Shown here one piece after another: positions 3,719-17,677 of a stretch of 23,302 nt of DNA. Source of the stretch: a virus; the IMG/VR virus record IMGVR_UViG_3300042891_000295, positions 1 to 23,302 of that record; one strand, written 5' to 3'. A program made the position numbers and the translations under genes. A model generated the notes under the pieces. The model did no database searches. It saw nothing but the letters and a program-made list of their open reading frames with translations, and had not been told where the DNA came from. The number at the start of each line of letters is the position of its first letter. Position 1 is the first letter of the stretch.

Positions 3719-4427
3719 TAGGGCGGTCCAGAAGTTTGTGTTGTTTCATGTATTGTAACACATATTTGGACCAAAAGCTATGGCCGTTGGCTCCAAAGTG
3801 ATAACTTTTGGGATTCACGTGTTCGAATCCGTTGTTTTTTAATACAGCGTTCCAACTGTGTTCTCTTGAGTAAGGTTGGATATAGTGATTTTGCCAATCT
3901 CTTTGATTTGGTATGTCATTGAATGTGCTGTTGCCACTGTAGAACAAATGCCGCACATTGAGATCCTTTAGTCGGCAGTGTAGATGCCATATTTTGTTGT
4001 GCCATTCATTTGTTTTTTGAGCCCAATCCACATCCACAATATACTGACGATATCTAAATTCAAGCTCTGGTGGCACCATATCTACTCCACTAGCGTTTAC
4101 TTGATAGTATTGGCCTTCATGCACCCATTCTTCTCGTTCCCAAGTGGTCCATTGAATCACCATCACAGTATTATACAAACGATCGTAGTTTTTTTGCATC
4201 CAATCTGTGGTGGTACGCAATATACGATCATTGCTGGCTGCTGTTTCGGCATCACAGTAAAATTCAGTGTTGAGCATTCGGCTCAGATGCCGCCCCCAAC
4301 TGGCTTCCAAGTTGATTGGATGAGGCCTGCGGTCAATGCCATACCGTCCATCATCCACAGCAAAACAATCAGGCACCACTGCTTCGGCAGCCGCTGTATG
4401 GCTGCAACCATTCACGTACAATATCAT
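3699..4427 (-). CDS. SGNH-hydrolase-like protein, copy A
   Basis: A 242-residue protein whose N-terminus reads ILYVNGCSHTAA, placing S9 where SGNH/GDSL hydrolases carry the catalytic serine. An ASND near 64-67 could be block II, WTTWER at 93-98 a block III-like strand end, and SYHFGANGHSFWSKYV (H210, H216) the block V histidine. The second SGNH-like gene at 12325-13065 has the same order of blocks. The family includes esterases and O-acetyl hydrolases or transferases acting on glycans, so an O-acyl change of a surface or phage glycan is plausible but unproven. It starts with an ATGA overlap with the cytidylyltransferase gene. Confidence 0.55.
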   Translation of the reverse strand: MILYVNGCSHTAAAEAVVPDCFAVDDGRYGIDRRPHPINLEASWGRHLSRMLNTEFYCDAETAASNDRILRTTTDWMQKNYDRLYNTVMVIQWTTWEREEWVHEGQYYQVNASGVDMVPPELEFRYRQYIVDVDWAQKTNEWHNKIWHLHCRLKDLNVRHLFYSGNSTFNDIPNQRDWQNHYIQPYSREHSWNAVLKNNGFEHVNPKSYHFGANGHSFWSKYVLQYMKQHKLLDRPNEISTD

Positions 4428-4900
4428 CGCTTGAGCAATACTTTTTCTGTTTCGGCTGCCACCACACGCTTGCGCAAACTTGAACTTGAGAACGAGTGAT
4501 CTCTGCCGTTGAACACAATCTCAATGCCACGATTATAACACTCATCACGACCGGTAAAGTCTTTGTCACAATACTCTACACCCAGCACCCGAACATCCAA
4601 GGGCAGGATCAATAGAAGGTCACAGAGATCCTGTTCGGTTTGGTACACAACAACTTCATCAACGTAACGGCATGCAGCCAGCTGTATCTGTCTCTCCACA
4701 ATACTTTGTATCGGATGATTCTTAGTCTCAGGCCTATCGATAGTTGGATCTGTTTGGAGCCCACAGATGAGGTAGTCGCAGTGATTCTTTGCTTCAGAAA
4801 GCATGGCGATGTGGCCTGCGTGGAGCATGTCAAAGGTTGAGAAAGTGATGCCAATTTTTTTACCTTCTGATTTGAGTTGTTTGATGTGATTGAATATCAT
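4424..4900 (-). CDS. Cytidylyltransferase-like nucleotidyltransferase
   Basis: The 158-residue protein belongs to the HxGH nucleotidyltransferase superfamily. HAGH at residues 27-30 lies in GITFSTFDMLHAGH, and SSSSLRKRV at 138-146 is the ISTTxLxxRI-like second signature. The closest functional types are glycerol-3-phosphate cytidylyltransferase (TagD) and the RfaE/HldE C-terminal domain, which activate a phosphorylated polyol or sugar with CTP or ATP. Together with GalE, the aminotransferase and the glycosyltransferases in this window it may supply an activated building block. It is flanked by ATGA overlaps on both sides. The substrate is not predictable. Confidence 0.78.
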   Translation of the reverse strand: MIFNHIKQLKSEGKKIGITFSTFDMLHAGHIAMLSEAKNHCDYLICGLQTDPTIDRPETKNHPIQSIVERQIQLAACRYVDEVVVYQTEQDLCDLLLILPLDVRVLGVEYCDKDFTGRDECYNRGIEIVFNGRDHSFSSSSLRKRVVAAETEKVLLKR

Positions 4901-5327: not shown

Positions 5328-6200
5328 TCATTTGCCCCAACCATTGCCCCAAAGATCCACATGCAATCTTGGGCTGTAGTTGTAGCCACGCTCCAAGGCC
5401 CAGTTGGCCACATTCACTCGGTTGCATTCGTATGGAGTGACCACACCGCCTTGCGGCATCACATAGGTAATACCACGAAAGCCTGCCTCACGATATGCAG
5501 CCACAGCACGATCCACTTCTTCAAAGTGTGCTTCACTGTCAACAACAAACTTCAAATACACTGTGCCGTTGCTTTGATAGTCTGCTATGATCTCTGGCCG
5601 GATGGCATCCGACCACAATTCACCCGATGCCGACAGCTTGGGACTTACTGAGAAAGTAATTTCTCGTGTGGGAATAGCACCTATGTCAGGCTGCCTCCAC
5701 TTGTGCAAAAAGTCTTTGAACTTGGGTTGTAGCGTTTGAGTGCCATTGGTTTCAAATGTGATGTTCTTCAAATCACTCATGGCGTCTTGGCTCAGCAGTT
5801 CTTTGTAACCACGCTGCCAACCCAGCAGTGGTTCGCCACCTGTGATCACAAGATGCACATCATTACCGTTGTCTTGTTGCCAGCGATGGTTGGGCGTGAG
5901 TGCAAGCATCTTTTCAATCAGCTCGTCATGTGCGAGTGTATGACTTAGGTCTTTGAATGCAGGATGCCAACTGGCATACGAGTCGCATCCTGTGTTAACA
6001 AGAGGAAGCTCTTCAAAAGTCTTGTAGAGATGGATTGATTTGGCCACTTCATCCGCATCAGTGCTCTTATGGCCGGGAGCGCAGCCAAATCCCGCGCATG
6101 TAAAGTTGCAACCGAAGGTTCGTAAGAACACAGAAGGAACTCCAACAAATCGTCCTTCGCCCTGTGCAGAATAAAATAGTTCACTGATTTTTAGTTTCAT
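5328..6200 (-). CDS. queE: QueE, 7-carboxy-7-deazaguanine synthase (radical SAM)
   Basis: QueE turns 6-carboxy-tetrahydropterin into 7-carboxy-7-deazaguanine (CDG) using a 4Fe-4S cluster and S-adenosylmethionine. Evidence is the N-terminal ELFYSAQGEG, the cysteine loop beginning C31-N-F-T-C35, GGEP at 121-124, FETNGT near 149-154, SVSPKLS at 184-190, and the C-terminal SPRLHVDLWGNGWG. Length (290 aa) is above many bacterial QueEs (about 210-245). The third cluster cysteine is not at the usual CxxxCxxC spacing: C40 (CxxxCx4C) and C72 are the candidates. The ATG has no ribosome site and lies five bases after a TATAAT box, so translation may be leaderless. With FolE and QueD it makes a three-step CDG pathway. 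Confidence 0.9.
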   Translation of the reverse strand: MKLKISELFYSAQGEGRFVGVPSVFLRTFGCNFTCAGFGCAPGHKSTDADEVAKSIHLYKTFEELPLVNTGCDSYASWHPAFKDLSHTLAHDELIEKMLALTPNHRWQQDNGNDVHLVITGGEPLLGWQRGYKELLSQDAMSDLKNITFETNGTQTLQPKFKDFLHKWRQPDIGAIPTREITFSVSPKLSASGELWSDAIRPEIIADYQSNGTVYLKFVVDSEAHFEEVDRAVAAYREAGFRGITYVMPQGGVVTPYECNRVNVANWALERGYNYSPRLHVDLWGNGWGK

Positions 6201-6221: not shown

Positions 6222-7766
6222 TTAAAAGTCCAAAGCTAAATGGCTACCTTTTCTGGTATACACAGATTGGGCTTCGGCCGACCAAGCGTTATATAACTCA
6301 TCATCTACCACACGACAATGTTCTTCTGGTGAAGCATCTCTACCAACCCAGATTGGATGATAGTCGGGCCAATTGGCCACAATGAATCTTCCGTGGAATT
6401 GACTTTTTATTGCTTGCCACACTGGCTCAAATGCCTCGGCTGGAATATGCTCTAAACTTTCAACCATAAGAATGGTGTCAAAACTGGATAGATCCAAATC
6501 TGCCAATGCCAATTGAATTGGTTTATTAACAGGTATTGCTGGCACAAACTCTTTGTCAAAGTAGTGATAGCCGGTGGCCTGATACCACTTGACAGCTTCG
6601 GGTCCTAACTCCACACTGACTACGTCTATGCCCATGTGCTTGAGTACGTTTGCCACTTCGCCACGACCGCCGCCAATTTCTAACACACGCTTGGGAGTTC
6701 TACGACTTTTGTCTTTTAGGAAATTCATTTGAGCATGCACTAGGCTTTGATTTGCACTTTCGGCACGACCGTTAACATCGTGATCAAATACTTCTTGAAA
6801 TTGTTCTACCAGTTCGTCCCAACTAATGCCATGAGCATAACATAACGCCGCCAAGGCATCACCAAATTTTAAACTTTTACTCTTCCAACTTTGTATACCA
6901 TCAGCTTTGGTAAAGTAATTGAAATCATATAGCGACTTAGATTCGCCATTACTATCCAATGTAAACTGTTTCATTTGCTGATTGATATCGTTGGTCTTGA
7001 GTTTTTCCCAAGGGTCTTGTTTGCCTACCTTAACACGTTCCCAAAAATCGATGCTAATACCTTGGTCAAGCATATACCTAGCAAGTTGTTCAGTTTCCTC
7101 TATGCGGTTTTGTATGACCTGTAGATTGTGAAAATCTCTAGGATCTGAAGGATTGCCTTCGTACATTATTCTAGCTTTGTAAGTGCTGTCATTGTTGTTG
7201 CCAGTCAAGTCCTGTCGATCATGTGTGGCCCAAACAGGAATACGTTCATAGACATCGAGTTTATATGCAATTTGGCTCAACCAAGCATCATTCATTTGGT
7301 GCTGGCTAAGATGCCCTAACGTAGTATACCAGGCCTTGGGCACAATAGGAAAGATGCTGTAAGGATGATCATTGTGAGTGTGAACACTTAACAACTTAAA
7401 TTGTCCAGTATAACTAGCAATCACAGTATCCCACCCTTGGGTTTCCATCACAGCATCATCGTTCCAAAAGAAGAACCAATCAGCATCAGCATTGTCTGCC
7501 AATTTGTTGATGTATTGATTGAGGCGACCGTAGCCAAGTGGATCAAATGTCAATGCACTATATTCAACGTCTGTGGTATCCAACCAAGGTTGAATGACAT
7601 CTGTAAAATGCTTAATACCTGTGGCATCATCATTGTCAAGACCAAGTATCAACTGGATCTTGCTGGGAGTGTCAGCAAGACCAATTAACGTTTTTAAACT
7701 GCGTTCCAACATTTCTGTTCGACCGCGAGTGGGCAATAATATTGCTATATCAAACTCTGAACTCAT
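6222..7766 (-). CDS. GT-A glycosyltransferase fused to a SAM methyltransferase
   Basis: The 514-residue protein has two catalytic domains. Residues about 1-200 look like a GT-A (GT2-like) sugar transferase: start with IAILLPTRGRTEML, LGLDNDD at 41-47 and a DxD-like WNDDA at 101-105. A helical middle region (about 210-350) follows. Residues about 358-510 are a Rossmann methyltransferase with motif I VLEIGGGRGE at 361-370, an acidic end of strand 2 (VSVELG) and a VESLEHIP block near 443-450. A fusion of this sort could transfer a sugar and cap it by methylation. The start follows the YhhQ stop with no gap. The acceptor (glycan, protein or modified base) is unknown. Confidence 0.72.
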   Translation of the reverse strand: MSSEFDIAILLPTRGRTEMLERSLKTLIGLADTPSKIQLILGLDNDDATGIKHFTDVIQPWLDTTDVEYSALTFDPLGYGRLNQYINKLADNADADWFFFWNDDAVMETQGWDTVIASYTGQFKLLSVHTHNDHPYSIFPIVPKAWYTTLGHLSQHQMNDAWLSQIAYKLDVYERIPVWATHDRQDLTGNNNDSTYKARIMYEGNPSDPRDFHNLQVIQNRIEETEQLARYMLDQGISIDFWERVKVGKQDPWEKLKTNDINQQMKQFTLDSNGESKSLYDFNYFTKADGIQSWKSKSLKFGDALAALCYAHGISWDELVEQFQEVFDHDVNGRAESANQSLVHAQMNFLKDKSRRTPKRVLEIGGGRGEVANVLKHMGIDVVSVELGPEAVKWYQATGYHYFDKEFVPAIPVNKPIQLALADLDLSSFDTILMVESLEHIPAEAFEPVWQAIKSQFHGRFIVANWPDYHPIWVGRDASPEEHCRVVDDELYNAWSAEAQSVYTRKGSHLALDF

Positions 7767-8384
7767 TTAGGTCCCTTGGTTGTCTAGTTTCTTTTGCAAG
7801 TGACTCAACAAAAATCCATAAGCAGGCAGAATAACCAACAGGCTTACAATGACTTTGCTGATTGAATTGTTGGTTGCAACAATGTGCCAGTTAGCAGCCA
7901 TGAACTCGTTTGCGCCGCCAGCAAAGGCAGTAAAGAAGAACACATAGGTATCAAAGAATGTGCTCACAATTGAACTTAGCGCAGGAGCAATCCACCAAGT
8001 GGCATACTTCTCACGAATGTATTGGAACACGTACACATCCAACAAGTTGCTCACAAAGTATGCAACACCCGAACCAAGACCAATGCGGAAGGCCACTGAG
8101 TCAGGAGCACCGCCCAGTTTGACCACTGCCATTGACACAATGATAGCAGGAATGAATGCCAATGCAATCACGGCGCGACCAGTTTGTTTGCCTAACATTC
8201 GCACAGTCAAGTCGGTCAACACAACCACTAGTGGGAATGTAAACGCAGCCGCTGCCAATGGTGCACCAAACACGGAGAATTTGAATTGCACAATATAGTT
8301 GCTGATAGCAATAATAATGATATGTGCCAGCATGAGCTTGTAGGCCAATGCGCGGTCAACACCATTTAAGATTCGATCTAACAT
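7767..8384 (-). CDS. yhhQ: YhhQ-family queuosine precursor transporter
   Basis: A 205-residue inner-membrane protein with about six hydrophobic segments. Signs of the VUT/YhhQ family are the segment FTFPLVVVLTDLTVRMLGKQTGR (residues about 48-70; the T-D-L...GK...R pattern), the repeated small-residue helices and SSIVSTFFDTYVFFFTAF around residues 137-154, where family members have S/T-x-x-D-T. YhhQ imports preQ0 and preQ1, the free bases from which queuosine is made. Its place directly after queD, 17 bases away and under the same promoter, and in the same genome as DpdA, argues that the phage scavenges a 7-deazaguanine precursor as well as making one. An AAGGAA ribosome site precedes the ATG. 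Confidence 0.85.
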   Translation of the reverse strand: MLDRILNGVDRALAYKLMLAHIIIIAISNYIVQFKFSVFGAPLAAAAFTFPLVVVLTDLTVRMLGKQTGRAVIALAFIPAIIVSMAVVKLGGAPDSVAFRIGLGSGVAYFVSNLLDVYVFQYIREKYATWWIAPALSSIVSTFFDTYVFFFTAFAGGANEFMAANWHIVATNNSISKVIVSLLVILPAYGFLLSHLQKKLDNQGT

Positions 8385-8401: not shown

Positions 8402-8908
8402 TTAAACGAATAGATCTTCCATCCACTCGCGATGGCCTTCTCTAAAAGCCATATTGCTCTGTGTTTCGCGCACTTCCACACGATAGCACCAGAGACGCTC
8501 TGCTTCACCCGGTCCCCACAGGTCCGGTATGTAAACACCGTTCACATACTTGTACAGCATGTCTGCTAGGCCTTCACAGCCTAAGCGTGGCAGGATTGTG
8601 AGTTTGGCCATTTTCTTCTCTTGCAAGAGCTTGTATGTTTCCAGCTCTGGGTCATCTGCGGATACTAGTAAGGTATGATCAAATTGATCTTCTAATGTCT
8701 TTTTAAGTTCTTTAAGACCGCCGTAGTCAGCAGCCCAGTTGCGCACATCCAACGTGTCTGTGCCAAAGTAGAACTTCATTGAAAAACTGTATCCGTGAAT
8801 TAGATTGCAGTGGCTGTCAGCACGCCATTGTCGGTATGCGCAGGGAAAAGCATCATGATACTCTTTAGTGCTGGTGTACTTGTATTGTACTGGTTGATTT
8901 GTTGCCAT
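8402..8908 (-). CDS. queD: QueD-like 6-carboxy-tetrahydropterin synthase (variant metal site)
   Basis: A T-fold protein of the 6-pyruvoyl-tetrahydropterin synthase family, 168 residues, expected to convert dihydroneopterin triphosphate to 6-carboxy-tetrahydropterin. The order matches QueD: FPCAYR (21-26), C34 followed by HGY at 38-40, DYGGLKELK around 61-69, DHTLLV at 77-82, CEGLADMLYKYV near 111-122 and EVRET at 145-149. Odd points are HGY in place of the zinc-binding HGH, and FPCAY where bacterial QueD has an AAH; H18 might replace the first ligand. An AGGAGG six bases before the ATG and a strong promoter just upstream mark it as well expressed and the first gene of its transcript. Confidence 0.85.
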   Translation of the reverse strand: MATNQPVQYKYTSTKEYHDAFPCAYRQWRADSHCNLIHGYSFSMKFYFGTDTLDVRNWAADYGGLKELKKTLEDQFDHTLLVSADDPELETYKLLQEKKMAKLTILPRLGCEGLADMLYKYVNGVYIPDLWGPGEAERLWCYRVEVRETQSNMAFREGHREWMEDLFV

Positions 8909-9996: not shown

Positions 9997-11034
9997 TTAG
10001 CCTTGAAAAAGTCCTGCCATGCCTACACCAGGCCTGGGTGGGCTCATTGTACGAATACCCTTGAATTGGTAAGGATCAATCTTGGGCATGCGCTTCATGA
10101 TAGTATCTCTAAATTGATCACTGTGAAAATATTGTTTGTTGCGTTCTACTCTATCTTGTACATGCCGGTAAATGTCAAGGATAGTGCCCGAATCAATCCA
10201 GCTTTTAACAAAATTGGCAATCTGCTCCAGTCTAAGATTTTCGTCGGTTTGATTGTCCCATGCACGCCACGGAACAAGATCTTCAAACATATCAAATCCA
10301 ATATCAACATGGAATTGATTCACTCCTGCATTACAGATCATAATTGGTATTTGTCGTGCTATAAAAGGTTTGCAAGATTTTTCTGTGAGTGATGGAAATT
10401 GTGTTTGTGTTTCTGTAACAATGTTCACAGCATACTGATCATATACTGGATGTTCTACCCCGGTATCATTTATAGGAGTGACGCCATCTGGGTCAAAACC
10501 ATCACCGGGCAATCTACCAGTTTGCCAAGGCAAGTCATCTGTAATAGGCACAGTAAGACACATGCGATCTGAATAATCTTTCATCAAATGATAAAACTTG
10601 ACTCTATGAGTACGGCCGCCTCTATTCAAACACATGACTCCGTGTGTTTTTGTTCCAAGGGCGTCAAACCTATCTCTGTACATTTGACTGAAATTATTGC
10701 GATGACTATACATGTACATCCAAATTGGAAAATAATGTATATTGGGCGCCGACTGACTATACCACTCATTGTACATTGAAGTCAGAGTAGTCATGTTACA
10801 CAATTCATCAGGAATCTGGTGCGGCGGAAAACTATTCTGTGACAGATCAACCACAACATTTTTACAAGAATGCACATCTAATAATTTTATTATTCTTTCG
10901 CCACTATATCTCCAAGTAGACTCATCAAACTCGCATGCCCAAATATCTAAATCAGATATAACTACTATATCTTGATAAAACCATTGCGATAGATATGGTT
11001 TAAGTGCATCGGCTCCATGAATATTATAAATCAT
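9997..11034 (-). CDS. GT10-like glycosyltransferase family protein, paralogue 2 of 3
   Basis: A 345-residue protein sharing with its two paralogues the CLNRGGRTHR block (135-144), NIVTET (204-209), LTEKSCKPFIARQIP (216-230) and GFDMFEDLV (246-254). The N-terminal half is aromatic-rich and different between paralogues, as expected if it recognises distinct acceptors. The C-terminal pattern resembles the donor site of GT10-type GT-B enzymes, so transferase activity is inferred. Its ATG overlaps the folE stop (ATGA), so it is cotranslated with the first gene of the deazaguanine pathway. A link to that pathway is possible but only by position. Confidence 0.6.
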   Translation of the reverse strand: MIYNIHGADALKPYLSQWFYQDIVVISDLDIWACEFDESTWRYSGERIIKLLDVHSCKNVVVDLSQNSFPPHQIPDELCNMTTLTSMYNEWYSQSAPNIHYFPIWMYMYSHRNNFSQMYRDRFDALGTKTHGVMCLNRGGRTHRVKFYHLMKDYSDRMCLTVPITDDLPWQTGRLPGDGFDPDGVTPINDTGVEHPVYDQYAVNIVTETQTQFPSLTEKSCKPFIARQIPIMICNAGVNQFHVDIGFDMFEDLVPWRAWDNQTDENLRLEQIANFVKSWIDSGTILDIYRHVQDRVERNKQYFHSDQFRDTIMKRMPKIDPYQFKGIRTMSPPRPGVGMAGLFQG

Positions 11035-11723
11035 CGTGGTGCAAAGTCCTGCTGTAGTTTGATGTTGTCAAAGAACTCTTTCTTCACGCTTTGGTCTGTT
11101 TTAAAAGCACCATGTAATACCGTTGTTTGGGTGAGACTAGAGTGAGCCATGATACCGCGATTCTCACAACAACCATGGGTAGCTTGTATATAAACTGCGA
11201 CATCCGTGGACCCGGTCGCGAATTCAATTTCGCGAGCAATATCCATACATAGCTCTTCTTGGAGAGTGCCTCGACGGGCACACCATTGCGCAATCCTGGT
11301 ATACTTGGATAAACCAATAAGTTTGGGGCCAGCAATGATTCCAATATAAGCCACACCCGTAACAGGCTGGTGATGATGCGAACACATGCTCTTAAGCTCC
11401 GAACGCACCACCAACATACCTTCGTATGCTCCGTCCGTATCGTTCGGGAAAGCTGTAGCATTAGGACTCTCCTCATACCTGCCAGCCATAATTTCATCGA
11501 AGTACATTTTGGCAAGACGTTTTGCGGTACCTTTTGAGTTTGGATCATTTTCCCTGTCGATTAATAGTACATCAAGCACTTGTTCAAATGCTTGAGTGGC
11601 TTCTGTGATTAAATGTTCTCGATCTGATTCGGCAATGTATTCGCTGATATTGTCCCCGGCCCAGAATCTCTTGCCGTCTGCCTTCATGCGTTCGCGAAGG
11701 GCTTGTGATAGGTTTTTTTCCAA
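11031..11723 (-). CDS. folE: FolE, GTP cyclohydrolase I
   Basis: GTP cyclohydrolase I (type IA) opens GTP to dihydroneopterin triphosphate, the entry step to both folate and 7-deazaguanines. The 230-residue protein has the zinc ligands C114 (in MCSHHH, 113-118) and C185 or C186 (HGCCENRG, 183-190), the substrate-site block KSMCSHHHQPVTGVAYIGI, and GTAKRLAKMYFDEI at 65-78. Length is normal for the family. The likely start is TTG at 11723, since GGAG lies about nine bases before it and the next ATG is at residue 13. A near-perfect promoter stands in the gap before it. In this genome the product most probably feeds QueD, QueE and DpdA. Confidence 0.92.
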   Translation of the reverse strand: MEKNLSQALRERMKADGKRFWAGDNISEYIAESDREHLITEATQAFEQVLDVLLIDRENDPNSKGTAKRLAKMYFDEIMAGRYEESPNATAFPNDTDGAYEGMLVVRSELKSMCSHHHQPVTGVAYIGIIAGPKLIGLSKYTRIAQWCARRGTLQEELCMDIAREIEFATGSTDVAVYIQATHGCCENRGIMAHSSLTQTTVLHGAFKTDQSVKKEFFDNIKLQQDFAPR

Positions 11724-14056: not shown

Positions 14057-14649
14057 TCTACAATCTCAATTTCTCTAAGATCAGGGTATGCCACATATAC
14101 AGGCTTGGGGTTGTGTTCCTTGACACCTTGTAGCAATGCCACACCTTGCACTGCATCTTCGATACTGGGCTTGTAATGATATCCCACGTGGAAAGTCTTT
14201 TGGTCCTGCCAAGGTGCCACAGTCAAGTCTCTGCCATCATAGCGTTGGCGCAATATGGTTTCATATGCTTTTTTATCATCCAACAAAATAGCACCACCAT
14301 GACCAATGTGCAAAGGCTTGGTATGCCCAAAACTCAAGCACTGCATGGTACCTGAACGATACATGTCTTTTTCTAATCTGCGAGCACTATCCCAAATTCT
14401 AGTATAAGTGAATTCATATTCACCTTCCCAGTGTTGCCATTCGGTGTCGTGATACACATAGTGAATACCCAACTTGTGCATGGTCATAGGAATGCTCAAG
14501 TAAGTGTAAGGTGTAAACTTACAGGCTCGCACTCGATCATATCGCAAACACATTTCGATAGCATGTGTACAGCAATCAGTCATGACTGCATAAGGTGCTC
14601 CTGTGAACTCTGCTAGTTCTTTTTCAAACTTTAAAATCTTATCAAACAT
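14053..14649 (-). CDS. Short DegT/DnrJ/EryC1-type sugar aminotransferase
   Basis: Members of this PLP-dependent family add an amino group to keto sugars and are usually about 370 residues. Here only 198 are present: the N-terminal helix with FEKELAEFTGAPYAVMTD, an Asp87 in WDSARR equivalent to the cofactor-binding aspartate, and K111 in SFGHTKPLHIGHGGAI, the Schiff-base lysine. The C-terminal domain is replaced by a short tail ending with REIEIVD. The core can bind PLP, so this may be a compact phage form rather than a broken gene. Both ends overlap neighbours within the sugar block (GalE upstream, GT10-like downstream), which argues that it is intact. Confidence 0.72.
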   Translation of the reverse strand: MFDKILKFEKELAEFTGAPYAVMTDCCTHAIEMCLRYDRVRACKFTPYTYLSIPMTMHKLGIHYVYHDTEWQHWEGEYEFTYTRIWDSARRLEKDMYRSGTMQCLSFGHTKPLHIGHGGAILLDDKKAYETILRQRYDGRDLTVAPWQDQKTFHVGYHYKPSIEDAVQGVALLQGVKEHNPKPVYVAYPDLREIEIVD

Positions 14650-15589
14650 ACCAATTCCAAGCGTCTCGAATCATATCGTCTAGATTATAGTGACGCCAGG
14701 CACCTGCAACCATGTCAAATTTGGCAGGGCTTGCTGTCAGCTCTGGAGGATCACCTGCTCGTCGAGCCTCTGTGCCAATGTCGGGCATTTTACCAACAAT
14801 AGTTTTTGCATGATCTATTACTTGCCTGACACTTGTGCCTTGATTTGATCCAAGGTTATAGACCCCTGCAGGAATTTTATGATCCAATGCCAAGGCGTGA
14901 GCCCTTGCGATATCAGCCACATGCACATAATCACGCACACAAGTTCCATCGGTCGTAGGGTAATCGTCACCGTATATTCTAAACTGTCCATTGTCTCTTG
15001 CGGCCTCTAAAAACCTAGCAATCAAGTGTGTGGCACCTGGCTCTTGCCCGTGTCTGCCTTGGGGATCAGCACCACAGGCATTGAAGTAGCGGAAACTAAC
15101 ATAGTCAAGACCGTATGCCTGATGATAACTTTCCAGCATCATGTCAATCATCAGTTTGCTTTCGCCATATGGACTGACAGGTTCTTTAGGATCCACTTCG
15201 TGTATGGGATTCATGATAGGCTCACCATATGTGGCAGCACTAGAGCTAAAGACAAATTTGCAACGAGGCATGCTGTTCTTGACAATGTCCAACAGCTTCA
15301 GCGTCTTGGCCACGTTGTTGTTGTAGTATTCGCTAGGATTTTTCACACTAGGACCCACAAGGCTGGTGCCAGCACAGTGAATGATAGCGTCAGGTTGTTT
15401 GGCAATGATCCAACTTAGTGCCACATCACTTGCAAAGTCCTGATACAAGAATCCATTGGGCACACCACGCAGATGTGCAGGAGGATCTCTACGGTCAATA
15501 CCATACACTTCGTGCCCGGCATCTTTCAATGTGAGCATGGTCTGTCCACCAATATATCCGGCTGAGCCGGTCACAATTACAACACTCAT
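14642..15589 (-). CDS. galE: UDP-glucose 4-epimerase-like protein (GalE family)
   Basis: Extended short-chain dehydrogenase/reductase with NAD-binding GSAGYIGG at 8-15, the catalytic Ser in FSSSAATYG (about 114-122) and Y141-x3-K145 in SPYGESKLM. RYFNACGADPQGRHGQ (168-182) and a C-terminal region with NLGSNQGTSVRQVI are typical of GalE. At 315 residues it is slightly shorter than bacterial GalE (about 338). It would interconvert UDP-glucose and UDP-galactose or the N-acetyl forms, giving donors for the glycosyltransferases nearby. ATGA overlaps link it to the genes on both sides. The specific UDP-sugar cannot be assigned. Confidence 0.85.
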   Translation of the reverse strand: MSVVIVTGSAGYIGGQTMLTLKDAGHEVYGIDRRDPPAHLRGVPNGFLYQDFASDVALSWIIAKQPDAIIHCAGTSLVGPSVKNPSEYYNNNVAKTLKLLDIVKNSMPRCKFVFSSSAATYGEPIMNPIHEVDPKEPVSPYGESKLMIDMMLESYHQAYGLDYVSFRYFNACGADPQGRHGQEPGATHLIARFLEAARDNGQFRIYGDDYPTTDGTCVRDYVHVADIARAHALALDHKIPAGVYNLGSNQGTSVRQVIDHAKTIVGKMPDIGTEARRAGDPPELTASPAKFDMVAGAWRHYNLDDMIRDAWNWYV

Positions 15590-15789
15590 TCAACTTCCTT
15601 GAACAATGGCACATTTTCACTCAGCATCCTAATAAACTCTAAGTTAGTTGGGAATGTGTCTAGTGCGCCTTTGTGGGTTGTGAGATTAATTTTAATGTTT
15701 TCTACCAGGTACGATCCTGTTTCTAGGCCATACCAAAACGTTTCTGTAGCACCTTGCTCTATTTGATTTTTAAAATGTTCGCTAATCAT
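15586..15789 (-). CDS. Small protein between glycosyltransferase and GalE (67 aa)
   Basis: A 67-residue acidic protein beginning MISEHFKNQIEQGATETFWYGLE. It starts with an ATGA overlap with the glycosyltransferase gene and ends with another one into galE, so it is real and translationally coupled. No motif, membrane segment or signal peptide is visible and I do not recognise it. Confidence 0.6.
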   Translation of the reverse strand: MISEHFKNQIEQGATETFWYGLETGSYLVENIKINLTTHKGALDTFPTNLEFIRMLSENVPLFKEVE

Positions 15790-17000
15790 TCTTCAATCTT
15801 TACAACTTGATATTTTTCGTGAGCAGCGTGGTCACGATATCGGTTGCCCGCTCTATTCCACTGCTCGCCCATACCACTAATAATATCAACAACACGGTCC
15901 ACAGTGCCATTGTTCCAGTTGCTGATAAGTCCCATGTTGTGGTGCGGTTCTCGTAGAAGCATTTGCATCTTGTGATAAGCGTCATCTATGCTCCAGGGAA
16001 TATACAGTCTATTGGGATCGTTCGCGAAGGTTTCAGGAAAACTGCGATACGCTGGATATAGCACATTGCATCCAAGAGTATCGGCCTCCGATACGGTGTT
16101 TGAAACCCAATCTTGTAAAGCACAATTAAACAACACACGAGTATTGTTGAGATGAGCATAGTATTCATTCTTGCTTATGTTGTCATAGATCCGGAGTTTG
16201 CCTTCTGCCTCCATACGGCGGGCACGTTCAACATACTCAGGATTATTGGATCGTAGAGGTCCACCTGAGTATATGGCAAATTCACAAGGTTCGCTGGTGA
16301 GCTCGCTATACATTTCAATAAGGTCCATGAAGAAGCCAGGTTGTTTTTCCTGATCAAAACGGGCTGCGAAACCCACCCTCCGCGGACGGCTATCAAATAG
16401 CTTGATATTCTCTGCCCCCCCAATGCGGCCAAGAACTTCTTCTTTTCCAAATGCAAGGCCGGAAATGTTGTAGATTGGAGCAGTCCATCCAGCAATCCGC
16501 ATGTGCGCGACCATTTCTTCATTGGTTGCCAATACTGCACCCCCCGAGAAAGCCACCATTTCATTGACCATTTGTTCATACAAGTTCATCCACTTTGCCA
16601 TACCCCAAACATGCACAAAGTCATCAGGGTCAATGGCCTGCGCCAAACAACGAACATAAATTTTAGGACACTGTTCTTGTGGAATCTGATTCATGATATA
16701 ACCAAGACTTTCAAAGCCTGGTTGAAACATGTCTTCAAAATAGATCACATCGTTGCCAGTAACATCGCCGTTCTTCATCATCTGAACCAAGTTCATCATT
16801 TGGCTCATGGCAAAGAAACTGCGTCCGTGTGCGTCCAACACTTGCCCCACAGAGATAGCCTGTGTGTTGTCAATAGTGGTGCCGGGCACATACACAACAT
16901 CCAGTCCTCGACGGTCAAACACACGTCGGTTCCATTCTGTTAGTTGTAAGGTATAACGGGCTTCATAACTTTCCAAGCCCATGTAGAATAGTTTTCTCAT
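15786..17000 (-). CDS. GT4-like (GT-B) glycosyltransferase
   Basis: The start at 17000 (MRKLFYMGLESYEARY) overlaps the stop of the previous gene in a TAATG arrangement, which I prefer over the longer frame from 17039; this leaves 404 residues. The C-terminal half carries RRVGFAARFDQEKQP, a GT4-like start of the donor-binding domain, a SGGPL loop and a terminal part with EADTLGCNVLYPAYRSFPE where the nucleotide-sugar-binding E-x7-E region is expected (only the first glutamate and a later E are clear). The N-terminal half is variable, as usual for acceptor recognition. It opens the sugar block. Donor and acceptor are unknown. Confidence 0.75.
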   Translation of the reverse strand: MRKLFYMGLESYEARYTLQLTEWNRRVFDRRGLDVVYVPGTTIDNTQAISVGQVLDAHGRSFFAMSQMMNLVQMMKNGDVTGNDVIYFEDMFQPGFESLGYIMNQIPQEQCPKIYVRCLAQAIDPDDFVHVWGMAKWMNLYEQMVNEMVAFSGGAVLATNEEMVAHMRIAGWTAPIYNISGLAFGKEEVLGRIGGAENIKLFDSRPRRVGFAARFDQEKQPGFFMDLIEMYSELTSEPCEFAIYSGGPLRSNNPEYVERARRMEAEGKLRIYDNISKNEYYAHLNNTRVLFNCALQDWVSNTVSEADTLGCNVLYPAYRSFPETFANDPNRLYIPWSIDDAYHKMQMLLREPHHNMGLISNWNNGTVDRVVDIISGMGEQWNRAGNRYRDHAAHEKYQVVKIEE

Positions 17001-17221
17001 TAGAATCTTCCGGCGAAGCGACGAGTATCTTCGTCCCACATGTTCTTGGCATTCTTGCCTTGTGAATATTTGTTATACTGTTGCCAAGCATAACTCTTGA
17101 AGTTGTACAAATCAGCCTCGTTGTAGCGATAGCCATAGTCTTGGCAGAATTCCAAGAGTTTTTCCAAGTCGTCTTGGATCTCAATCACACGGGGGTTAGA
17201 TTTGAAAGTAATTTTTGCCAT
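17000..17221 (-). CDS. Small conserved phage protein (73 aa)
   Basis: A 73-residue protein starting MAKITFKSNPRVIEIQDDLEK, with an aromatic-rich middle (YGYRYNEADLYNFKSYAW). The AGGAAAA ribosome site before the ATG and the TAATG overlap with the glycosyltransferase gene support it. The layout is of a small protein conserved in T4-like aquatic phages. Function is unknown; the aromatic, Y/N-rich segment could bind nucleic acid or another protein, but nothing specific points there. Confidence 0.7.
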   Translation of the reverse strand: MAKITFKSNPRVIEIQDDLEKLLEFCQDYGYRYNEADLYNFKSYAWQQYNKYSQGKNAKNMWDEDTRRFAGRF

Positions 17222-17233
17222 TTTGTTTTCCTA

Positions 17234-17677
17234 TTAGATAGCAATGTTGATATTGGGGCGGTGAGTTTCATATTTAATAAGGGCTCCGTTTTCACCATCT
17301 TCGGAGACCTCAATCCAGACTGCACGTCCGGGATATCTTGCGGCGATTTCTAAATACAAATCGTCTGCCATCATTTCACATGACTTGTAATCAAGTTGGA
17401 TGACTCCGTCTTGATAGAGTTTTTGGAGCCAGCGTTTGAACTGGATGAATTCGATGTCCCTGTCATCGTGGAACACATCAATCCACACCCGGAAGTGGAA
17501 GATATGACGGTGAGGAGCACTAAGGAAACTAACGTCATACTCATCACCCGTCGCAAGGGCTGGATCTGTTGCGGCTGCGGGATAGCAGTGGATTCCTTCT
17601 TTTTGGAAGGTGACCCAGATTCGTCTCTGAGCTTCATGTTTGATTCTTTCAATTTGTTCACGTTCAATTTGATTCAT
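17234..17677 (-). CDS. QueD-like T-fold protein, divergent (147 aa)
   Basis: I do not recognise a named family, but the order of features resembles the T-fold of QueD: H30 in EGIHCYPAA, then SAPHRHIFHFRVWIDV (H56, H58, H61) where QueD has its HGH plus beta strand, an acidic-to-aromatic DIEFIQFKRWLQKLY where QueD has V-DF-x-x-LK, a helix SCEMMADDLYLEIAARYP (99-116) where QueD has T-S/C-E-x-LA, and WIEVSEDGENGALIKYE (121-137) where QueD has V-x-ET. It lacks the LDHxxLN catalytic motif (LDY instead), so a QueD reaction is unlikely; it could be a structural partner or a binding protein for a pterin or deazapurine. GGAG precedes the ATG and the start overlaps the nuclease-like gene. Confidence 0.45.
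   Translation of the reverse strand: MNQIEREQIERIKHEAQRRIWVTFQKEGIHCYPAAATDPALATGDEYDVSFLSAPHRHIFHFRVWIDVFHDDRDIEFIQFKRWLQKLYQDGVIQLDYKSCEMMADDLYLEIAARYPGRAVWIEVSEDGENGALIKYETHRPNINIAI

Follow-up and report, generated by a model that had tools for sequence, protein, structure and literature searches.

Genetic context of the T-fold gene

The window analyzed here, the whole 23,302-nucleotide stretch of IMG/VR virus record IMGVR_UViG_3300042891_000295, carries 7-deazaguanine genes on its minus strand. FolE, QueD and QueE convert GTP to 7-carboxy-7-deazaguanine (CDG), which is normally consumed by QueC. The window encodes FolE, the GTP cyclohydrolase I of the first step to CDG (11031–11723; PF01227, E = 3.6e-39), a QueD proper in which HGY stands for HGH (8402–8908; PF01242, E = 3.6e-16), and a QueE-like radical SAM protein, the enzyme that makes CDG (5328–6200; phrog_2076, E = 2.8e-51). 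A QueT/YhhQ-like deazaguanine precursor transporter can be found at 7767–8384, with a TIGR00697 match above the cut-off (101 bits) and an NF008406 match below it (E = 2.1e-48). The QueC profile had no match in the 23-kb record, which is likely a fragment, such that absence there means little. The one PDB sequence match of the window QueD, 7v0f, is titled as a QueD2 paralog. Genes for sugar or group transfer can also be seen near the module (4424–4900, 6222–7766 and 14642–15589), where an HldE-like nucleotidyltransferase, a methyltransferase-domain protein and an NAD-dependent epimerase are encoded.

Also on the minus strand is an ORF with an ATG start that encodes a 147-aa protein of the QueD superfamily (17234–17677; phrog_17812), a candidate CDG-processing, DpdL-like enzyme, which we refer to as the T-fold protein. 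A sequence-only reading of the window had placed this ORF, with H30, H56, H58, H61 and E123-V-S-E126-D127-G128, exactly where we find it, and had described it as coupled to dpdA, which the gene order bears out. The minus-strand string begins with a DpdA-like transglycosylase gene (20329–18764) and runs through genes for a 177-aa protein (18767–18234) and a 187-aa protein (18237–17674) to the T-fold gene (17677–17234), which shares four bases with this 5′ neighbour. Downstream in the same string are a 73-aa ORF (17221–17000) and then the gene of a GT-B (family 4-like) glycosyltransferase (17039–15786), which often accompanies the T-fold gene. Among 80 window-like loci, kept from the at least 599 IMG/VR stretches in which relatives of the T-fold protein occur, relatives of the DpdA-like protein are present in 76, of the 177-aa protein in 79 and of the 73-aa ORF in 69, while the overlapping 187-aa ORF has relatives in nine and is not core.

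The DpdA-like protein carries a DSGGFQ motif and is linked by profile (E = 1.5e-6) to a family whose Xanthomonas phage X1 member is annotated as a queuine tRNA-ribosyltransferase. It had no Pfam TGT match, a PDB profile search found nothing, and the profile of the 9g, Bipper and Roos DpdA proteins showed no link to it. The 177-aa protein had no PHROG or Pfam match, and its AlphaFold2 model is weak (pLDDT 66.5) and gave no match in a fold search. Relatives of it were found in 13 phage records, every one of them belonging to the 27 that carry the T-fold gene.

Spread of the T-fold family

The only strong PHROGs match of the 147-aa protein is phrog_17812 (E = 3.8e-35), an unnamed family of unknown function. 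No match was found in Pfam (none to PF01242 at E-values up to 10), NCBIfam or PADLOC, and the homologue in phage Bakedbeans gave a weak, partial PF01242 match (E = 0.15). Matches to the family were found in 27 of 50,697 phage records, which comprise 11 Pseudomonas phages of the PA5oct group, five Cellulophaga phages, two ACP17 entries and nine single phages. The T-fold ORF is a real and widespread phage gene family.

For named phages, 12 of the 27 records were sampled, one per lineage, and the other 15 belong to three groups already sampled. Gene contexts were counted in 166 loci (148 from IMG/VR and 18 from genomes) with flanks of up to 8 kb and close relatives kept in. Two viral scans queried with the phiST and D479 copies returned no relative. 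Apparent fusions in the named phages were uninformative: the N-terminus of the MA9V-3 protein is endonuclease-like, and that of the Bakedbeans protein had no convincing match.

Predicted fold and active-site residues

An AlphaFold2 model built from 33 sequences (mean pLDDT 89.6, pTM 0.79) has strands at residues 19–30 and 56–67, helices at 74–87 and 100–114, and strands at 120–126 and 130–136, which is the T-fold order and corresponds to the beta-beta-alpha-alpha-beta-beta topology. The whole 147-aa model is a single T-fold unit and lacks a further domain that could take ATP. Its nearest structures are a PTPS and E. coli QueD: the top Foldseek matches in the PDB were Pyrococcus horikoshii PTPS 2dj6 (E = 1.7e-4) and E. 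coli QueD 4ntk (E = 3.0e-4). VIA-align gave Z-scores of 12.3 for 2dtt and 11.5 for E. coli QueD 4ntm (rmsd 2.3 over 110 residues), compared with at most 9.9 for dihydroneopterin aldolases and 9.4 for QueF-like proteins, in a list beyond which other families may also match. A sequence profile built from 22 members, without recourse to the model, also placed 2dj6 first (E = 0.012). The PTPS homologue PH0634 of P. horikoshii (2dj6, 2dtt) is accordingly the closest solved structure by profile, Foldseek and VIA, at approximately 19% identity; we know of no deazaguanine DNA context for it.

Residue conservation was assessed in 57 homologues of less than 85% identity, thinned from 180 matches. H30, L52, H56, H58, R73, E76, E101 and E126 are invariant in all 57, C100 occurs in 56 of them, and R118 in each of the 51 with a residue in that column. 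A profile alignment with three canonical QueD proteins (E = 2.2e-5, probability 76.5, 109 columns) pairs H30 with the first metal histidine of QueD, H56 and H58 with its HGH motif, E101 with the PTxE glutamate and E126 with the terminal glutamate. The canonical proteins gave this full alignment, while a phage-type QueD profile aligned over the C-terminal half only. Model and profile alignment thus agree on the divergent QueD-like T-fold that the sequence-only reading had proposed; a model lacking this fold, which would have spoken against the proposal, was not obtained.

In QueD, the terminal glutamate anchors the pterin ring, and the catalytic cysteine of the E. coli enzyme lies in a C-x3-H spacing, which is also visible in the QueD proteins compared here. 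The T-fold family resembles QueD (PF01242, COG0720; 4ntk/4ntm) in its fold, in the three histidines at metal ligand positions (H...HxH), in the PTxE-like glutamate and in the C-terminal glutamate, kept as E126. It differs from QueD in having no Pfam match, in newly conserved R73, E76 and C100, and in the loss of catalytic residues: the position four before H56, where QueD has its cysteine, is Leu52 in 57 of 57 homologues, and the Asp-His dyad of the LDH motif, recognized earlier as missing, is LDY at 95–97 in the window protein and is not conserved across the family. Of the histidine pattern put forward from the sequence, H30, H56 and H58 hold throughout the 57 homologues and H61 is not conserved. 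With leucine in place of the cysteine and without a conserved LDH motif, the QueD reaction is unlikely. Judged from these sequence comparisons, the family has kept the metal- and ring-binding parts of QueD, lost its chemistry and fixed a new set of residues. QueF and QueF-L (nitrile reductase and archaeosine synthase) are likewise T-fold enzymes that act on 7-deazaguanines, but their structural match is weaker than that of QueD, with which the metal histidines of the T-fold family align.

Deazaguanine pathway genes in carriers

When the 12 named phages were searched over their full records, FolE and QueE (phrog_2076) were found in 11 each and QueD (PF01242) in 10. QueC (PF06508) exceeded the cut-off in a single phage, Vibrio phage D479; a match in X1 was set aside as it lay below the cut-off and is annotated as an NAD synthase. 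No QueC was found in any of the 166 loci, counted with their close relatives and within flanks of up to 8 kb. It follows that the named phages make CDG, mostly without its usual consumer. Among five known deazaguanine phages used as controls, QueC was present in four (all except Bipper) and the T-fold family in none. A passage of Hutinet et al. (2019; PMC6884629) describes phage groups of 25 and 40 members that carry FolE, QueD, QueE and QueC, and names Bipper as missing QueC only. For PA5oct, a deazaguanine synthesis and incorporation system is reported in a passage (PMC7824862) in which details of T-fold and glycosyltransferase genes are absent.

DpdA-like genes of four profile types can be found in 149 of the 166 loci, and in 10 of the 17 loci without a match the sequence breaks off no more than 3.6 kb upstream of the domain. 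Types near the T-fold gene include that of the window, phrog_10773 in ACP17, X1 and ZZ01, phrog_20335 close to the phiST copy (DpdA-like by eye only), and phrog_887 (queuine tRNA-ribosyltransferase), which overlaps the T-fold copy of Faecalibacterium phage Roos. The Pfam TGT model matched in none of the 12 named phages and, since DpdA-like genes are present, is too narrow for them. The pairing of one small gene with DpdA genes of various types favours a small-molecule step common to them. These contexts, with FolE, QueD and QueE present, QueC nearly always absent and DpdA close by, fit the earlier suggestion that the protein may handle CDG.

Two phages count against a CDG-processing enzyme. 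Roos has the T-fold gene, DpdA and QueT and no FolE, QueD or QueE match, so that CDG there would have to be derived from the host. D479 has a QueC-like gene (phrog_1550; L162, 3708–4514) in addition to the T-fold gene. The QueT/YhhQ-like gene of Roos (L093, 11216–11887) lies beside the T-fold gene and DpdA, and the QueC-like gene of D479 adjoins a nicotinamide phosphoribosyltransferase gene.

Glycosyltransferase and alcohol dehydrogenase partners

The glycosyltransferase gene occurs in 155 of the 166 loci, and together with DpdA in 142. In the three IMG/VR sets it is on the strand of the T-fold gene in every locus that has it, and lies within 500 bases of the T-fold gene in 38 of 80, 27 of 42 and 22 of 26 loci; with named phages included, it is downstream in 152 loci and upstream in eight. 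The family has weak GT-B matches in Pfam, with the ZZ01 copy, 64% identical to that of the window, above the cut-off, and its closest PDB profile match is a putative glycosyltransferase (E = 0.0016). The window protein (15786–17039) has an E-x-x-x-x-RYT motif near its N-terminus. Phosso-type glycosyltransferases were found in 20 phage records; 16 of these belong to the 27 T-fold records, and the other four are partial matches.

Five of the 12 named phages have the glycosyltransferase and seven have no match in their flanks; the Phosso search likewise lists none of phiST, RHph_I1_18, Bakedbeans, Ahp1_CNU, D479, MA9V-3 and Roos. The T-fold step can therefore stand alone. Of the 166 loci, 21 have another partner upstream of the T-fold gene, an alcohol dehydrogenase (ADH)-like gene (PF08240, ADH_N; for example, L099, 6396–7283, and L165, 5876–6775). 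The best viral structural match, the 459-aa A0A6J5LEZ6 (43% identity over the aligned part), bears the name "alcohol dehydrogenase, N-terminal" and seems to be a fusion with the T-fold domain.

Carriers beyond phages

A scan of GTDB genomes identified 18 T-fold loci, mostly with the same phage-like gene set. Four Magnetospirillum loci (L171–L174), one of them from M. aberrantis SpK, have the order glycosyltransferase, T-fold gene, DpdA, small ORF and QueD, and the gene ends overlap in L171, the sole copy inspected in full. This chromosomal cassette may be an island for DNA modification, whether bacterial or mobile. By eye, a recombinase-like ORF can be seen near the L171 copy.

Two related archaeal contigs (Methanoperedenaceae and Methanosarcinales) carry QueE and FolE, with the T-fold gene approximately 2.5 kb further on. 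In L178 (3762–9307), QueD and, after the T-fold gene, a methyltransferase-like ORF were recognized by eye. The window type of DpdA was absent from both archaeal genomes, and none of the other DpdA types was recognized at the loci, to which that check was confined. Archaeal copies without a recognized DpdA nearby point to a small-molecule substrate, and the locus (L178, L179) is perhaps a 7-deazaguanine small-molecule pathway. All five cellular genomes tested have QueC elsewhere, which makes the absence of QueC a phage trait and not one common to every carrier.

Proposed function

On balance, we favour a role for the T-fold protein as a zinc-type enzyme descended from the QueD superfamily that acts one step further along the same pathway, once CDG is made, and decarboxylates CDG to 7-deazaguanine for DpdA, a reading that we hold to be somewhat better than an even prospect. 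FolE, QueD and QueE would supply CDG from GTP. E126 would bind CDG by its 2-amino-4-oxo (guanine-like) edge, in the way that QueD secures its pterin, and H30, H56 and H58 would hold a metal, with the carboxylate of CDG near the metal and R73. The residues R73, E76, C100 and E101 may together provide carboxylate holding and proton supply, and C100/E101 or E76 could protonate C7 prior to the loss of CO2. Release of CO2 would leave 7-deazaguanine, which DpdA would then exchange for guanine in DNA. We infer these steps from residue conservation and from the metal-dependent decarboxylation of aromatic acids, which is known chemistry. A glycosyltransferase partner would be unneeded for plain 7-deazaguanine, and its frequency counts against the decarboxylase.

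That partner is the basis of another reading, in which the T-fold enzyme turns CDG into an acceptor for the glycosyltransferase and phage DNA bears glycosylated 7-deazaguanine, for instance as a C-glycoside at a freed, electron-rich C7 or as an O-glycoside on a hydroxyl made by the ADH-like protein. The same-strand linkage on either side of the T-fold gene, the frequent co-occurrence with DpdA, the 16 of 20 Phosso-type phage records, and the ADH_N protein together with A0A6J5LEZ6 all speak for it. However, the glycosyltransferase is missing from the flanks of seven of the 12 named phages, many of the 166 loci are close relatives, and the sugar could be destined for another base or for a surface sugar. 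No glycosylated deazaguanine in DNA appeared in the titles and abstract openings searched, a literature that most subscription papers lie outside. We regard glycosylation of the base as a minority prospect, and give the same limited odds to a module that would insert sugar-bearing 7-deazaguanine into DNA by means of the T-fold enzyme, DpdA and a GT-B enzyme dedicated to the purpose.

The remaining readings are less probable. A second pterin enzyme, whether a back-up 6-carboxytetrahydropterin synthase, a PTPS-III or a dihydroneopterin aldolase-like protein, would be in keeping with the QueD fold, the shared metal and ring-anchor positions and the dihydroneopterin aldolase matches, but it is improbable given that QueD proper is present in the window and in 10 of 12 phages, that the catalytic Cys and Asp-His are lost, and that the gene linkage is to DpdA and deazaguanine genes. 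Replacement of QueC, with an amide or nitrile made from CDG, would suit the 11 of 12 phages without QueC over the cut-off; QueC, according to a passage of PMC13329287, requires ATP, for which the single T-fold unit has no domain, and we consider this very unlikely. A non-catalytic protein that binds a deazaguanine base and hands it over to DpdA would match the proximity of several divergent DpdA-like subtypes, yet strictly conserved metal ligands, Arg, Glu and Cys, and archaeal copies without a recognized DpdA nearby, leave it doubtful, slightly more so than the pterin enzyme.

Relation to DpdL and significance

Cui et al. reportedly described, in 2023, 2′-deoxy-7-deazaguanine in phage DNA and a predicted CDG decarboxylase named DpdL. 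The T-fold family (phrog_17812) is probably this DpdL and would then already have a name; among the literature matches listed for the word DpdL there was no deazaguanine paper, and the letters were used in unrelated senses. The role ascribed to DpdL, as a CDG decarboxylase in phages with DpdA, fits the presence of FolE, QueD, QueE and DpdA without QueC seen here. DpdA accompanied by CDG-making genes and no QueC is what we found, with the exceptions of D479, which has a QueC-like gene, and Roos, which has no FolE, QueD or QueE. The T-fold family was seen here beside glycosyltransferase and ADH-like genes as well, and in bacterial and archaeal genomes. In kind, the T-fold protein is ordinary, a QueD-derived pathway enzyme. 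New here are the linkage to the glycosyltransferase in 155 of 166 loci, the Magnetospirillum cassettes and the archaeal QueD-QueE-FolE locus.

Members of the T-fold family abound in viral metagenomes, although their function is annotated as unknown. Placement of the enzyme after QueE would explain how the deazaguanine base is completed in CDG-making phages without QueC. The decarboxylase reading names the exact residues to mutate, and a single purified protein would be enough to approach its chemistry. From the glycosyltransferase partner one may suspect a DNA modification for which perhaps nobody has looked: if it exists, decarboxylation would free a nucleophilic C7 for the sugar, or an oxidoreductase would make the hydroxyl for it. 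Such a pathway would represent a class of purine-based DNA hypermodification spread across diverse phages, carried also as a small cassette in Magnetospirillum genomes.
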